The position numbers and the translations under genes were made by a program. A model generated the notes under the pieces. It ran no database searches. It was given only the letters and a program-made list of their open reading frames with translations, and was not told the DNA's origin. This document shows positions 14,231-64,000 of a stretch of 64,000 nt of DNA, in pieces; position 1 is the stretch's first letter, and each line of letters opens with the position of its first letter. The stretch is from Verrucomicrobium sp. BvORR034 (GTDB taxonomy: Bacteria > Verrucomicrobiota > Verrucomicrobiia > Verrucomicrobiales > Verrucomicrobiaceae). Location: the NCBI RefSeq assembly GCF_000739635.1, contig NZ_BATQ01000119.1, forward strand, positions 1 to 64,000. The letters are read 5' to 3'.

Positions 14231-14312
14231 GCGCGGGTGGCGGAATTGGTATACGCGCAAGACTAAGGATCTTGTGCCGAAAGGCTTAAGGGTTCGAGTC
14301 CCTTCCCGCGCA
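14231..14312 (+). tRNA. tRNA-Leu (anticodon AAG)
   Basis: The acceptor GCGCGGG pairs perfectly with CCCGCGC. The D-arm is GCG/CGC. The anticodon stem is CAAGA/TCTTG with loop CTAAGGA, giving T33 and anticodon AAG (14265-14267). A long variable arm (GCC-GAAA-GGC) marks a class II tRNA. The T-arm is AAGGG-TTCGAGT-CCCTT, and discriminator A is typical of Leu. CCA is not encoded. An adenosine at position 34 is unusual for bacterial tRNA-Leu, where GAG is the normal reader of CUU/CUC. Confidence 0.93.
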
Positions 14313-14374
14313 CTTTCTCCCTAACCATGTGGAGTTGAGACCGGCAATCCGGGCGATCTCCCGCCCCGTTGCCC

Positions 14375-56767: not shown

Positions 56768-57568
56768 CTACCCCGCCCCATCCCCGGCCCCCTTTGTCAG
56801 CGGAGCAAGCAGGGCGGAATGCACCACCGCAACCGTATAGTCTCGATTGAGCTTGGAGATCCATCGTATGCCGATCCGTTTGGGACACGCGGCTTCGCAC
56901 TCGTACTGGTTGGTACAATTGCCGAAACCCGCATCATCCATGGCCTTCACCATGCCTAGCACTCGACGGTGTTTCTCGGGCTGGCCCTGGGGCAGCATGT
57001 TGAACTGGCCCGCTTTGGCCGCTGTGAAGAGCATGGCACTGGCGTTCTTGCACGACGCCACGCAAGCACCGCAGCCAATGCACTCGGCGGCGTCCATGGC
57101 GGAGTCCGCCACTTCCTTTGAGATGGGCAGGGCATTGGCATCCTGCGCGGAGCCGGTGCGCACACTTACAAAGCCGCCTGCGGCCATGATGCGATCAAAC
57201 CCGGTCCGGTCCACCATCAAATCCTTGATGACGGGGAAGGCGCTGGCGCGAAAGGGCTCCACCCAGATGGTGTCACCATCGTGGAAGGTCCGCATGTGCA
57301 GCTGGCAGGTGGTGGTGCCGCCCTGTGGACCGTGCGGGATCCCATTGATGACCATGCCACAGGTGCCGCAGATGCCTTCCCGGCAGTCGTGGTCAAAGAC
57401 GACCGGATCCCCGGTGGTGGAAATGAGCTTCTGGTTGACGATGTCCAGCATCTCCAGAAAGGAGGCGGTCTCGGGAATCTCCGGGGCTTCAATTTCCTGA
57501 AACCACCCCTCAGCCTGGGGGCCGGGCTGACGCCAGATTTTCAGATGCAGGTTCAGAGTGCGGGCCAT
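56768..57568 (-). CDS. sdhB: Succinate dehydrogenase/fumarate reductase iron-sulfur subunit
   Basis: 266 residues from the ATG at 57568 (the frame opens earlier, without support). It carries the three Fe-S centres that pass electrons from the flavoprotein to the membrane quinone site. The [2Fe-2S] centre is CREGICGTC with Cys62, 67, 70 and later Cys88. The [4Fe-4S] and [3Fe-4S] centres are [11 protein letters not shown] (163, 166, 169, 173) and [11 protein letters not shown] (218, 224, 228). The CIGCGACVA form fits the type B, cytochrome b558-linked group. It is the last gene of the sdhCAB run and lies 44 bp after sdhA. Confidence 0.96.
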
Positions 57569-57612
57569 GGGGAACGACGGTTGGAAGGTTGACTTAAGGA
57601 CAGGCGGCACGG

Positions 57613-59622
57613 TCAGACGTAGCTGCGCACGGCGAGATGAGCTTCCTCGAACTGGAGGTGCTCCTTATGGAGCACGGGTCGGCCAGTGTCCCCGGTGTAT
57701 TCCCAGGCGGCCACATAGGTGAAGTCCTCGTCATTGCGCCTGGCCTCGCCCGCCTGACCGAGCTTTAGCGCTTCATCCTCTTTGGTGTACTGATGCTCCA
57801 CCCGGAAGTGTCCGCCGCAGCTCTCCTCGCGGTGCAGCGCATCGATGCACATCAGTTCGCCGAACTCCAGGAAGTCCGCCAGGCGACCGGCCTTTTCCAG
57901 CTCCTGATTGAGGTCCGCGCTGCTGCCTGGCACCGTCACTCCCGCCCAGAACTCCTCGCGCAGGCCCGGTAACCGCGCCAGCGCCCGCTCCAGGCCCCCC
58001 TTACTGCGCGCCATGCCGCATTCGTCCCACATGAGCAGCCCCAGTTCGCGGTGAAAACTGTCTACGGAGCGTTTCCCTTTGATGTCGAGCAGCTTCTTCG
58101 TGCGAGCATTTACCGCCTCCGTCGTCTCGCGAAAAGCTGCATGTTCCGCCGACACCGCGCCCGGCTTCTGTGTGGCCAGATACGGTGCAATGGTCGTGGG
58201 GATCACGAAGTACCCGTCTGCCAGCCCTTGCATGAGCGCGCTGGCCCCCAGGCGGTTCGCGCCGTGGTCAGAGAAGTTGGCTTCCCCCAGGACGAAGAGG
58301 CCGGGCAGATTGCTCATCAAGTTATAGTCCACCCACAGGCCGCCCATCGTGTAGTGCACAGCGGGGTAGATGCGCATGGGCCGCTCGTACCCACTCTCTC
58401 CGGTGATTTGCTGATACATCTCAAACAGGTTCCCGTACTTCTCCGCCACCACCGCCTTGCCCAGACCGCGCAGATCGGACTCCGCCAGTTCCCTGCCTCC
58501 GGCCCGGTCCTTGCCATAACGCAGGATGGCCTCTGCGAAATCCAGATACACCCCCAGCCCGCCAGGACCCACTCCCCGCCCCTCATCGCAGGCCTCCTTC
58601 GCACTGCGGCTGGAGATGTCACGCGGGGCCAGATTTCCGTAGCTCGGGTACTTGCGCTCTAAATAGTAGTCCCGGTCGTCCTCGGCAATCTCGTTGGGGT
58701 GCCTGCCGCAGTCCTCCTTCTTCTTCGGCACCCACACGCGGCCATCATTGCGGAGAGACTCCGACATGAGCGTGAGCTTGCTCTGGTAGTCCCCGCTCAC
58801 CGGAATGCATGTGGGGTGGATCTGGGTGTAGCAGGGGTTGGCAAAGAGGGCCCCTTTTCTGTGCGCCCTCCAGATGGCCGTGGTGTTGCAGCCTTTGGCG
58901 TTAGTGGAAAGGTAGAAGACATTCCCATAACCGCCGGTGGCCAGCAGCACCGCATCCCCGGCGTGTACGGTCACCTTCCCCGTCACCAGATCCCGCACCA
59001 CGATGCCCTTCGCATGCCCGTCCACCACCACCAGGTCCAGCATCTCCGTTCTAGGAAACATCTGAACGTTCCCACGGGCGATCTCCTTGGTCAGCGCGGA
59101 GTAGGCACCCAGCAGGAGCTGCTGCCCCGTTTGTCCGCGGGCGTAGAAGGTGCGACTCACCTGGGAGCCACCAAAGGAACGGTTCGCCAGCAGGCCGCCG
59201 TACTCCCGTGCCAGGGGCACGCCCTGGGCCACGCACTGGTCGATGATGGCGGAACTCACCTCCGCCAGGCGATACACGTTGGCCTCCCGCGCACGAAAGT
59301 CGCCGCCCTTGATCGTGTCGTAGAAGAGGCGGTGGACCGAGTCCCCGTCGTTCTGGTAGTTTTTGGCCGCATTGATGCCCCCCTGCGCCGCGATACTGTG
59401 CGCCCGCCGGGCCGAGTCCTGGTAGCAGAAGCATTTCACCTTGTACCCCAGCTCAGAGAGAGTGGCCCCCGCGGAGGCCCCGGCAAGACCGCTGCCGACC
59501 ACTAAAACGGTAAACTTCCGCTTGTTTGCCGGGTTGATCAGCTTGGAGTCCTGCTTGTGTTTGGTCCATTTCTGGGCCAGGGGCCCCGCGGGGATTTTTG
59601 CATCGAGCACGATAGTAGACAT
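57613..59622 (-). CDS. sdhA: Succinate dehydrogenase/fumarate reductase flavoprotein subunit
   Basis: 669 residues from the ATG at 59622, which starts [19 protein letters not shown], the type B family N-terminus; the upstream extension overlaps sdhC. FAD binding is through [12 protein letters not shown] (about 41-52) and covalent attachment at His75 in [14 protein letters not shown]. Substrate and catalytic regions include [17 protein letters not shown]-type [23 protein letters not shown] and [19 protein letters not shown]. The enzyme interconverts succinate and fumarate on the cytoplasmic side of the membrane. Large insertions typical of the Bacteroidetes/Verrucomicrobia type B enzyme are present. 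sdhC is 47 bp upstream and sdhB 44 bp downstream. Confidence 0.96.
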
Positions 59623-59669
59623 GGGTGCGGGATGTTGAAGGATGGATGAACGCGCCGGTTCGAGTTGGC

Positions 59670-60371
59670 TCAGTGAACCCACTTGAACCAGACCGCGAAT
59701 ACGATGAGGGCATTTCCCATAAAGATGACCGCGGCATAAACCCGGCCCAGATTCTTGAAGGTGCCCATGGTGCGCGGCGTGGTGATGCCCAGCGTCTGGA
59801 ACATGCTGCTCACCCCGTGACTGAGGTGGGAGCACAGCATGGCCATGGCGATGAGATAGAAGACCGAAGCCGGCCACCAGGTGAATCCGGCGATGACCAT
59901 GCGGTACACGTCATGCACCGTCTCTCCGTGCAGGGTGGTCTTGTAGGTGCCATACTCGTTGCCCACCCGGAGGGTAAAATGCAGCAGGTGGTACACGATG
60001 AAGGCCAGCAGCGTAAGCCCGCTGAAGATCATGGTGCGGGAGGATCGCGTGGCCTGGATGGTTGCATCATACCCGTAGCGCCCGGGGCGGGCCGCACGGT
60101 TCTCCCTGGTGAGCTGGACGGTCAGCACCACATGAACAACGGTGCACGCCAGCAGGCCCAGACGCGCCACCCACACGCCCATGCCATGCAACATCGTCTG
60201 GAGGAAGTGACCATACTCGTTAATGGCGTCCGGCCCGGCAAAGATGAGGAGGTTCCCGATCAGGTGACCTAGCACAAAGCCCGCCAGCACCGCTCCAGTC
60301 AGGGCAACCAGGACTTTCTTGCCAATGGAGGAGCCGATCGTCAACGACATCGCCTGCGTCAGAGTGCTCAT
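59670..60371 (-). CDS. sdhC: Succinate dehydrogenase cytochrome b558 subunit
   Basis: A 233-residue membrane anchor with five predicted transmembrane helices (about 18-45, 63-87, 113-135, 158-182 and 204-228). Histidines suited to binding two hemes b lie at helix positions: [30 protein letters not shown] and LCSHLSHG. This matches the single-subunit type B anchor (Bacillus SdhC, TIGR02046) that exchanges electrons with menaquinone. With a low-potential quinone such enzymes can run as fumarate reductases. It is the first gene of sdhCAB and lies about 60 bp after the DUF1269 gene. Confidence 0.93.
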
Positions 60372-60433
60372 GATCGTGATGGGATGAGGTGGGATCAGGT
60401 TACAGGTGAAAGTGAAAAGGCGGGTAGGCAGGC

Positions 60434-60991
60434 TCAGGCAGCGCCCGGTGCCGGGCCGGGCTCCGCCTTCTCCAGCAGGGCCCGCAGTCGTGCTTCATTC
60501 TCCGGTGGCAGGGGCGCCTGCAGCACGCGGCACCGCCCAGCGAACCCCTGCAGCGCGGCGATGACCTCGTCTGGATTGGACGACTGGCGCACCAGTGCAA
60601 AGAGGGCCGAGGTGCCGTTGGTGAAGGAACTCCCCAGCTCCCGCATGAAGGCATCGCTGATGCCCACATCACTGAGCCGGCCCGAGATCGCCCCGATGCC
60701 AAAGCCGAGCAACACTCCCGCGGGATTCAGAAAGACAATCGAGGCCAGCAGCCCGGCGAAGGAGCCGTAGGTCGCGCCGATCACCGCCAGGTTGTCCTGC
60801 TGGTGCAGTGTCACCCGGCCGAGCTCATCCCGCACCACCACGACCATCTCCACCGCATCCATCGTCCGGCGGTCGCGCAGGCCAGCCAGGGTGCCCCGCA
60901 TTGCAAATGCCTCGGACACGTTGTCGAAGGCCACCACCACGAGCCGGGTTTCGGGAAGGCCCTGATCATTGTCTGGTTGTTTCATCGACAT
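60434..60991 (-). CDS. DUF1269 family membrane protein
   Basis: 185 residues. The opening TRLVVVAFDNVSEAFAMRGTLAGL and MVVVVRDELGRVTLHQ, then a glycine-rich hydrophobic hairpin (IGATYGSFAGLLASIVFLNPAGVLLGFGIGAISGRL, about 70-108) and a soluble C-terminal part (FMRELGSSFTNGTSALFALV), match DUF1269. The fold resembles TM2-less, Gly-zipper hairpin proteins; the function is unknown. Its stop lies about 60 bp before sdhC and its start is 5 bp after the PduL C-half stop, so it is probably translationally linked to the fermentative genes. Confidence 0.85.
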   Translation of the reverse strand: MSMKQPDNDQGLPETRLVVVAFDNVSEAFAMRGTLAGLRDRRTMDAVEMVVVVRDELGRVTLHQQDNLAVIGATYGSFAGLLASIVFLNPAGVLLGFGIGAISGRLSDVGISDAFMRELGSSFTNGTSALFALVRQSSNPDEVIAALQGFAGRCRVLQAPLPPENEARLRALLEKAEPGPAPGAA

Positions 60992-60996
60992 AGTTT

Positions 60997-61368
60997 TCAG
61001 CCGTCCTCCTGGATGCCATCAATGTACCCCTGGGCTCCGTTGCCCAGGTTGGCCGCGTTGGCTTCATCCGTGTCAATGTGCATGGCCAGGGCGAAGCTGG
61101 GGTCCACCCGGATCCGCACATCGCCAAAGATCAGCTCACGGTCCCCCTGCACGCGGATGCGCACCGTGCCCTTGTCCCGCACACCGTACCGCAGGGCATC
61201 TGCCGGCGTCATGTGGATGTGGCGCAGGGCGCAGATGACGCCCTGGTCCAGGTTCACACTGCCCGCCGGCCCCTCCAGCGTGCAGCCGGGCGAGCCCGCG
61301 ATATCGCCAGACTCACGGATGGGCGGCTGGATGCCTAGCTTGAACTGCTCCGTCATCGCGATCTCCAC
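60997..61368 (-). CDS. PduL-type phosphotransacylase, C-terminal half (continuation after amber codon)
   Basis: 123 residues beginning at the codon immediately after the TAG that ends the upstream gene, in the same frame; GTG at 61368 or ATG at 61356 could restart translation. The sequence is the second half of PduL: QFKLGIQPPIRESGDIAG, GSVNLDQGVICALRHIHMTP with zinc ligands His50 and His52, and ALAMHIDTDEANA with His97. PduL exchanges CoA and phosphate on acetyl- or propionyl groups and needs histidines from both halves of its duplicated beta-barrel. This fragment alone should therefore be inactive unless it pairs with the upstream half or is made by readthrough. A CAG at the TAG position would give the usual family residue Gln. 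Confidence 0.85.
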   Translation of the reverse strand: MEIAMTEQFKLGIQPPIRESGDIAGSPGCTLEGPAGSVNLDQGVICALRHIHMTPADALRYGVRDKGTVRIRVQGDRELIFGDVRIRVDPSFALAMHIDTDEANAANLGNGAQGYIDGIQEDG

Positions 61369-63309
61369 CTAGGTGGCCTTTCGCACCGGACCCAGCACCC
61401 GCACTCGCTCGATGCGTCCCTTCGGCCCCACGATGGTCAACTGCTCCTTGCAGGCATACTGCCCGGGCTGGGAGAGGTCTGCATGCTTTGTGAGCTGGTG
61501 TCCGGGGCCAAAGAGCGCCTCCACATCCAACGGGGAGAGATGGATGTGGTGTGCAGAAACTTCGATGGGTACTGGTGCATGGCGGCAGGCATCACTGGCC
61601 CTTACCAGGCAGTCCCGTGCGAGCACCCGCAGGGTCTCCCGGGCGATCATGCGCTCCTCGTCCGTGGGCACCACCAGCACCGTCACCGGGGAGTCCGGCG
61701 CGGAGATAGGGCTCACGGCCCCTGTGACCACACGGCGGTTGAGTTCCTCATCCAGCACGATGCCCATGCAGCCCAGCCCCTGGAGCGCAGTGGCACGCAC
61801 ACCGGCACTCCCCTGCCCGATGCCTGCGGTGAAGAGCACCACATCCACCCCTCCCATGGCAGCGATGTAAGCACCGATGTACTTCCGCACCCGGTAACAG
61901 AAAACCTTGAGCGCCGTGAGCGCCCGGGCGTCGCCTTGCTCCACCTCTCGCATGTCACTGGACACCCCGGAGAGCCCCAGCAGACCGCTGCGGCGGTTCA
62001 ACATTTCATCGAACTGCTCCGGCGTCATCCCCTCCGTGCGAGCCAGGTGGGCGGCCACTCCGGGGTCAATATCGCCGCAGCGGGTGCCCATGAGCAGCCC
62101 CTCCCCAGGCGTGAGCCCCATGGAGGTGTCCACGGAGCGACCGTGGTCGATGGCGCAAACCGAGGCGCCGTTGCCCAGATGGCAGCTGATGATGCGCAGG
62201 TCCCGTGGCCTCCGCCGCAGGTGCTGCGCGGCCGCCAGCGTCACGTAGCCGTGGGATGAGCCGTGAAAGCCGTAGCGCCGCACACCCTTTGTTTCATAGT
62301 ACTCATACGGCAGCCCGTAGAGGTAGGCCTGGCTGGGCAGGGTGGCGTGAAATGCGGTGTCAAACACGGCCACATGAGGAACGCCGGGCAGGACCCGCCG
62401 GGCCTCGCGGATGCCGGCGGCATTCACGGGATTGTGCAGCGGGGCCAGAGCTCCCAGGGACTCGATCTCAGCAAGGACAGCGTCATCGATGACCATGGCA
62501 CTGGAGAACTTCTCCCCGCCATGCACCACGCGGTGCCCCACCACTGTCACGGCCGTGCGGTCGTCGCGGTCCTTCAGCACGCCCGCCTCCGGATGCCCCA
62601 GGGCGGCCTGCATGGCCTGAAACGCTTCAGCAAAACCCCCGCCTGGGAGATCCTGCTGCAGCTCCCCCTTCGCACCGCGCTGGCTGAGCCGCATGCCCGG
62701 CTGGCCAATGCGCTCCACCTGCCCGGCCACCGTCAGGTCCGGCTGCTCCGTGTCAAAGTACCGGTACTTGAGCGAGGACGAGCCGCAGTTGATCACCAGA
62801 ATGCGCTCCGGGCGTTCGCCCTTGAGTTCGAGGAGCTCACCATCCCCCTGCCTCCGGCCCGCCACCGCCACCGCCCGGGCTGGGTCCTGCAGGGCCAGCT
62901 GCACCCGGCTGCTTACCGTCATGGCGATGAGCTGTGCCGCACCCGGATTCGCCATGATGCGCGTCTGAAACAGGGTCAGAGGCACCAGCAACACCCGGCA
63001 CGGGGTGACCGCCACCAGGTCAGCCACAGCCGGGTCTCCGCTCATCAGCGCCAGCTCGCCAAAGGTGCCGCCGGCGTGGATCTCCCCGAGGGGGCCATCC
63101 GCCTCCCCGGTTGCCGGAATGAAGGCCTGGATCGTCCCCTCCAGCAGCACACCCAGGAAATGCACCTCATCCCCGCCGTGCAGGACCACCTCCCCCGCCC
63201 GACAGCTCCGCACCAGGGATCCCTCCACCAGCTCGCGACGCTGTGCGTCCGTGAAGTGGGAGAGCAGTGGAACGCTCGTGTTGACAAAGGCCAGATCACT
63301 CACACTCAT
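61369..63309 (-). CDS. Fusion: cNMP-binding-like domain, acetate kinase, PduL N-terminal half
   Basis: 646 residues, ATG at 63309. Residues 10 to about 140 resemble a Crp/cyclic-nucleotide-binding domain (GEVVLHGGDEVHFLGVLLEG, GGTFGELALMSGDPAVAD). The usual phosphate-binding Arg of the PRxA motif is Ala, so binding of cAMP or cGMP is doubtful. Residues about 168-565 are a complete acetate kinase: LVINCGSSSLKY, GHRVVHGG, FDTAFH, RRYGFHGSSH, CHLGNGASVCAI, GDIDPG and FTAGIGQGS. Residues about 572-646 are the first half of PduL (VSAHHIHLS with His588 and His590, then DLSQPGQYACKEQ and IERVRVLGPVR). It ends at TAG (61369-61371), and the PduL sequence continues directly in frame. It combines acyl-CoA to acyl-phosphate to ATP chemistry in one chain. 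aspA is 29 bp upstream. Confidence 0.9.
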   Translation of the reverse strand: MSVSDLAFVNTSVPLLSHFTDAQRRELVEGSLVRSCRAGEVVLHGGDEVHFLGVLLEGTIQAFIPATGEADGPLGEIHAGGTFGELALMSGDPAVADLVAVTPCRVLLVPLTLFQTRIMANPGAAQLIAMTVSSRVQLALQDPARAVAVAGRRQGDGELLELKGERPERILVINCGSSSLKYRYFDTEQPDLTVAGQVERIGQPGMRLSQRGAKGELQQDLPGGGFAEAFQAMQAALGHPEAGVLKDRDDRTAVTVVGHRVVHGGEKFSSAMVIDDAVLAEIESLGALAPLHNPVNAAGIREARRVLPGVPHVAVFDTAFHATLPSQAYLYGLPYEYYETKGVRRYGFHGSSHGYVTLAAAQHLRRRPRDLRIISCHLGNGASVCAIDHGRSVDTSMGLTPGEGLLMGTRCGDIDPGVAAHLARTEGMTPEQFDEMLNRRSGLLGLSGVSSDMREVEQGDARALTALKVFCYRVRKYIGAYIAAMGGVDVVLFTAGIGQGSAGVRATALQGLGCMGIVLDEELNRRVVTGAVSPISAPDSPVTVLVVPTDEERMIARETLRVLARDCLVRASDACRHAPVPIEVSAHHIHLSPLDVEALFGPGHQLTKHADLSQPGQYACKEQLTIVGPKGRIERVRVLGPVRKAT

Positions 63310-63338
63310 GGCAGCATGCTTAGATCGTTTCCTCTATC

Positions 63339-64000
63339 CTACACCTGGCGCGGGTGGGTCATGTTCTCCGGCTTGAGGAGCTCATCCAGCTGCTCCTTGC
63401 TCAGCCAGCCCTTTTGCAGCACCAGATCATAGACGCTCCCGCCTGTCTTCAGCGCCTCTTTCGCAATTGAGGCGCTCCGTTCATAGCCCAACACCGGATT
63501 GAGCGCCGTGACCAGGCCGATGGAGTTGTGCACGTACTCCAGACAGCGCTCGCGATTGGCCTCGATCCCGGCGATGCACCGGCTGTGCAGAATGATGGCC
63601 GCATTTCGCAGGAGCGTCAGGCCAAACAGGAGGTTGAACGCGATCACTGGCTCCGCCATGTTCAGCTCCAGTTCGCTCGCCTCCGCCGCCATGGAGACTG
63701 TGACATCCGCTCCGATGATCTGGAAGCAGATCTGGCTCACCACTTCCGGCACCACAGGGTTCACCTTGCCCGGCATGATGGACGAGCCCGGCTGCATGGG
63801 CGGCAGCTTGATTTCATAGAGCCCGCACCGCGGGCCGGACGACAGCCAGCGCAGGTCGTTGCAGATCTTGGACAGCTGCACTGCCGCCGTCTTCATGGTG
63901 CTGCTCATCAGCACAAACTCGCCCGAGTCCTGGGTGGCCTCCACCAGATCCCCTGCCAGCGTCACAGGAATGCCGCTCACCTCCGCCAGCCGCTGTGTAC
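63339..64000 (-). CDS. aspA: Aspartate ammonia-lyase, C-terminal part (cut by window edge)
   Basis: About 220 codons; the frame remains open through the right edge (reading TQRLAEVSG upstream of the first internal GTG), so the start is outside. The signature loop GSSIMPGKVNP, with the catalytic Ser region of the aspartase/fumarase superfamily, is intact. LSKICNDLRWLSSGPRCGL and EPVIAFNLLFGL favour aspartase over class II fumarase. The C-terminal small domain includes RCLEYVHNSIGLVTALNPVLGYERSASIAKEAL and ends MTHPRQV. Aspartase deaminates L-aspartate to fumarate. Its position ahead of the acetate-kinase fusion and sdhCAB suggests that fumarate is fed to the type B complex. Confidence 0.9.
   Translation of the reverse strand, partial: TQRLAEVSGIPVTLAGDLVEATQDSGEFVLMSSTMKTAAVQLSKICNDLRWLSSGPRCGLYEIKLPPMQPGSSIMPGKVNPVVPEVVSQICFQIIGADVTVSMAAEASELELNMAEPVIAFNLLFGLTLLRNAAIILHSRCIAGIEANRERCLEYVHNSIGLVTALNPVLGYERSASIAKEALKTGGSVYDLVLQKGWLSKEQLDELLKPENMTHPRQV

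Follow-up and report, generated by a model that had tools for sequence, protein, structure and literature searches.

The structure of PduL, a phosphate acyltransferase (phosphate propanoyltransferase), has been solved for R. palustris: His48, His50 and Glu109 bind Zn1, His157, His159 and His204 bind Zn2, and Gln107 is named among the conserved active-site residues (PF06130; PDB 5CUO; PMC4784909). Restart of translation after a stop codon has been measured in native gene pairs, with stop and start about -8 to +6 nt apart or a Shine-Dalgarno sequence close by, and where a spacing of +14 nt lowers reinitiation by 40-80% in E. coli (PMC10666635). We found no paper on a cNMP-AckA-PduL fusion when we searched the literature. 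Here we describe such a fusion, interrupted by one amber codon, in a 64,000-nt stretch of Verrucomicrobium sp. BvORR034 (the window; contig NZ_BATQ01000119.1).

The fusion gene and the position of its stop

One frame on the minus strand, running from ATG 63309 to TGA 60997, encodes a cNMP-binding/acetate kinase/PduL fusion in which TAG is codon 647 of 770, and a search of the genome (8.58 Mb in 200 contigs) found no other PduL gene. The features of the locus are as follows.

63339..63998, minus: cNMP-binding fumarase/aspartase-type lyase, C-terminal part, upstream in the same operon, ending in TAG (sequence, Pfam)
61369..63309, minus: 646-aa ORF that ends at the amber codon (ORF list and Pfam)
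aa 34-117 of the 646-aa ORF, minus: cNMP-binding domain (Pfam PF00027)
aa 170-557, minus: acetate kinase domain, complete and upstream of the stop (Pfam PF00871)
aa 581-646, minus: first part of PduL (Pfam PF06130, positions 1-66)
61369..61371, minus: TAG in frame as codon 647, which specifies Gln in all aligned relatives (sequence, alignment to 5cuo_A)
61365..61376, no strand: perfect palindrome of 12 bp, CCACCTAGGTGG, that includes the stop; the equivalent in strain BvORR106 (L007) is not palindromic
61354..61368, minus: possible signals for reinitiation, namely GTG at 0 nt and GGAG placed 6 nt ahead of ATG 61356-61354, which is in frame
60997..61368, minus: PduL continuation up to TGA, of 123 aa if begun at GTG and 119 aa if begun at ATG (PTAC positions 68-175)
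60434..60991, minus: DUF1269 protein, its start codon 5 nt past the stop codon of the fusion (ORF list, Pfam)
56768..60371, minus: SdhC, SdhA and SdhB-type succinate dehydrogenase/fumarate reductase, downstream in the same operon (NCBIfam TIGR02046, NF005749, NF005746)

The acetate kinase part of the 646-aa ORF matches NCBIfam TIGR00016 with 454 bits, and in a profile search the frame read through across the stop matches PTAC positions 1-175 with 261 bits. The original prediction placed TAG in frame directly after KAT, with no shift of frame, and this is what we found: the frame reads ...VRKAT before the stop and VEIAMTEQFKLG after it, PTAC positions 1-66 precede it and 68-175 follow, and position 67 is the sole profile position to fall on it.

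The PduL part of the fusion aligns without gaps to 5CUO, and by count along this alignment codon 647 corresponds to Gln107 of R. palustris PduL, with the zinc ligand Glu109 two residues on. With TAG at this place, BvORR034 encodes no continuous polypeptide that contains Gln107. The ligand residues of Zn1 and Zn2 are all identical to those of 5cuo_A, yet they are spread across two reading frames. The idea that both halves keep their zinc histidines holds for the histidines but is not supported in so far as it suggests two usable halves, because the stop falls within domain 2 (R47-F60/E82-A154 in the alignment to 5CUO), which is one beta-barrel, and not between domains, Gln107 is lost, and the ligands of Zn1 are divided, with His48/His50 before the stop and Glu109 after it.

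Codon 647 in relatives and the age of the stop

The three-domain fusion is found in many genomes. We aligned 85 other loci at codon 647, comprising 80 fusion loci that were kept and five from a whole-genome search, with one BvORR106 contig, seen via two collections, present among them as both L007 and L002. Codon 647 specifies Gln in all 85 (84 of the 86 gene copies have CAG and two, L015 and L005, have CAA), and none of these loci has an internal stop anywhere in the aligned frame. We also sampled 388 genomes from across the phylum: 47 match PTAC, and in 46 of these, all but BvORR034, PduL was likewise free of internal stops. A split form of PduL was absent from every relative examined, whether among the 85 aligned loci or the 47 PTAC-matching genomes. 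In Rhodocyclus purpureus the cNMP-AckA-PduL fusion occurs twice in tandem (L052, 2526-4838 and 5001-7313).

The closest relative is Verrucomicrobium sp. BvORR106, whose fusion (NZ_BATR01000112; 87% identical) agrees with that of BvORR034 in length, reading frame, order of domains and neighbours in the operon, but has CAG at codon 647 and encodes a continuous 770-aa protein. Around this codon BvORR106 reads GCT ACA CAG GTG GAG ATC GCG ATG and BvORR034 reads GCC ACC TAG GTG GAG ATC GCG ATG, so that one C-to-T transition in the first base of CAG would be the simplest account of TAG. The proposed Gln position and CAG-to-TAG change are borne out by these comparisons, except that the motif behind the Gln is VEIA and not VEIS. 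As for a cause of the transition, the ancestral context CCAGG would suit a methylation hotspot, but six other CAG codons of the gene share that context, and the best bacterial PDB match of the genome's single C5-methyltransferase is M.HaeIII. The palindrome at the stop is probably due to chance; CCACCTAGGTGG occurs exactly once in the window, where near-matches with at most 2 mismatches number 11 against 3.2 expected from shuffles.

The stop is thus lineage-specific in a gene that is intact in relatives, and since every relative examined is uninterrupted, it would most likely be a recent and unremarkable mutation that abolishes the function of a gene the cell can do without. We put the probability that it is a young, real nonsense mutation, CAG to TAG in one genome, that removes PduL and leaves the kinase, at roughly 0.7.

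Both parts of PduL are under selection, as had been supposed, with dN/dS against BvORR106 of 0.052 before the stop and 0.063 after it, compared to 0.062 for the kinase. When changes after the stop were assigned to branches with the G014 protein as outgroup, the BvORR034 branch showed two conservative replacements (I687L and S715T) against eight polarised silent changes and the BvORR106 branch five replacements against 15 silent changes, the two branches being alike (Fisher P = 1). By a simple bound, the downstream part can have escaped constraint during no more than about 6% of the lineage's time since the split, or 9% with unassigned changes, in agreement with the view that this is not an old pseudogene. 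No relaxation after the stop was seen, which is the expected result if the stop is young. Constraint downstream is normal (0.063 versus 0.062 for the kinase), so the stop would be recent, a sequence error, or tolerated in that the downstream part is still made; the constraint fits continued use, a young stop and a sequence error equally and cannot distinguish between them.

That the living strain carries CAG and an intact fusion, with TAG a sequence error, we consider unlikely. The rest of the gene is intact and fully constrained and the assembly is a draft of 200 contigs, as an error would have it, but drafts seldom contain isolated substitution errors, and TAG lies inside a 73-kb contig, away from its ends. 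Moreover, 134 other domain matches of the BvORR034 genome (46 sulfatase and 88 ABC-transporter) contain no internal stops, and the assembly is therefore not error-rich.

Translation at and after the stop

GTG directly follows TAG, as originally noted, and an in-frame ATG lies +12 nt from it; the spacing is that of coupled split genes, with GTG at 0 nt and ATG at +12 nt behind GGAG. Ribosomes that stop at TAG might accordingly begin anew at GTG (0 nt) or ATG (+12 nt), with the resulting 119-123 aa piece and the stub fully or partly active together. The spacings are within or near the measured reinitiation range (PMC10666635), GGAG is placed 6 nt before ATG (GGTGGAG-6nt-ATG after the stop), the downstream piece is constrained, and such a restart would also avoid polarity on the closely coupled DUF1269-sdhCAB genes. 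Against such a split enzyme, the bases after the stop are ordinary Val-Glu-Ile-Ala-Met codons, identical in the uninterrupted BvORR106 (L007); the same GTGGAGATCGCGATG is present in that relative, and the start signals are therefore not an adaptation and were not shaped for reinitiation, nothing having evolved for this role. In addition, the cut lies in a beta-barrel, one zinc site is divided, Gln107 is supplied by neither piece, and the split form is absent from the relatives examined. We therefore give an active split enzyme little credence. Of the suggestion that termination-reinitiation yields two halves, what stands is that it could do so in principle; the signals are ordinary VEIAM codons found also in an intact relative. 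Judged from these signals, reinitiation may well produce the 119-123 aa piece in some amount, but its activity with a stub and without Gln107 appears doubtful. There is a slimmer chance still that one transition made the fused enzyme a working two-piece enzyme via pre-existing start signals, the PduL pieces joining up across the break, with a kinase:PduL ratio that is not 1:1. Were the two pieces functional, a gene would here have undergone fission within a domain in one natural step, by termination-reinitiation.

In BvORR034, TAG serves as an ordinary stop, because RF1 is present in the genome (465 bits), no tRNA with a CTA anticodon was found among 61 tRNA matches (the weakest first-look candidates being scored only in part), the adjoining lyase gene uses TAG as its normal stop, and the 134 domain matches are stop-free. 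The DUF1269 gene of BvORR106 also ends in TAG, and the TAG that had seemed to lie inside this gene is its natural C-terminal stop. We reject genome-wide amber recoding, given RF1, the tRNAs, the normal TAG next door and the lack of in-frame TAG in the 134 domain matches, and the amber codon is neither conserved in relatives (85 loci; 47 phylum genomes) nor recurrent in the genome (134 domains).

Low-level misreading of UAG is general in bacteria. Nevertheless, that readthrough yields some full-length fusion, by a suppressor tRNA or by low-level misreading that inserts Gln, is very improbable. The unbroken frame and the fact that Gln belongs at this position would favour it, but the tRNA matches showed no CTA anticodon, the genome has RF1, TAG terminates the adjacent gene, and no other in-frame TAG turned up in the sampled domains; the full enzyme once proposed to arise in this way finds no support. 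Elsewhere in the genome, about a dozen low-scoring, non-standard tRNA genes are clustered in ~2.6 kb (L134, 447-3048; G000:C58:9446-12047), namely Met, Ile, Phe, Gly, His, Pro, Gln, Leu (three), Glu, Lys and Arg-like ones, besides a normal chromosomal tRNA set; the anticodons of the unresolved members of this array were read by eye and none is CTA. The window itself contains a tRNA-Leu with anticodon AAG, which is uncommon in bacteria (14231-14313).

Operon context, redundancy and comparison with known systems

The operon comprises a Dcu-type C4-dicarboxylate transporter, the cNMP-binding lyase (whose gene runs past the window edge, L153), the fusion, the DUF1269 gene and SdhCAB, and is common to BvORR106 and, in part, to G014, with SdhB and SdhC carrying the Sdh point of this synteny. 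The lyase and AckA-PduL, two unrelated enzymes, each have an N-terminal cNMP-binding domain (L153, 5340-8726, G000:C82; window 56768-63998), which suggests that a cyclic nucleotide may exert allosteric control on a fermentative module. The role of the module is probably anaerobic C4-dicarboxylate metabolism with acetate formation, the C4-dicarboxylate transporter and fumarate reductase-type genes pointing to life without oxygen, and this pairing of cNMP domains in an accessory operon is a more interesting context than the stop itself. Also on the minus strand of the window, a single open frame of 7022 aa extends over 30040-51108.

The BvORR034 genome also encodes, apart from the fusion, an acetate kinase (ackA) and, ~1 kb from it, a full-length phosphotransacetylase (pta), both at G000:C38. 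The complete genome of the same genus that we compared (G003) has the ackA-pta pair and lacks PduL; it has no DUF1269 match and one fewer full-length sdhA-type gene, the second full-length sdhA-type gene of BvORR034 being located at C134. G014, which belongs to another genus, has an intact fusion and no phosphotransacetylase. The operon module thus looks accessory.

Under the reading that we prefer, that of a recent nonsense mutation, a C-to-T change would have broken the PduL domain of an otherwise normal fusion in one Verrucomicrobium genome. The ribosome would terminate at UAG, read by RF1, and the product would be cNMP-AckA carrying a PduL stub without function, so that phosphate acyltransferase activity of PduL would be gone or nearly so. 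This loss is presumably tolerated because the separate ackA-pta pair would carry out the same chemistry and the whole operon is accessory. The amber codon may be polar on DUF1269. As a nonsense mutation, TAG matters for annotation only, and the record for BvORR034 should show the cNMP-AckA protein as intact and PduL as interrupted.

Compared to R. palustris PduL (PF06130; 5CUO, PMC4784909), the two BvORR034 pieces share the zinc histidines and Glu109 but are broken at Gln107 and fused to acetate kinase, and the genes examined around them form an organic-acid operon, not a microcompartment locus. With single-base nonsense pseudogenes of bacteria, the BvORR034 gene has in common a single substitution, a frame that is otherwise intact and constrained, a redundant function and restriction to one genome; no established difference sets it apart, and start signals happen to adjoin the stop.
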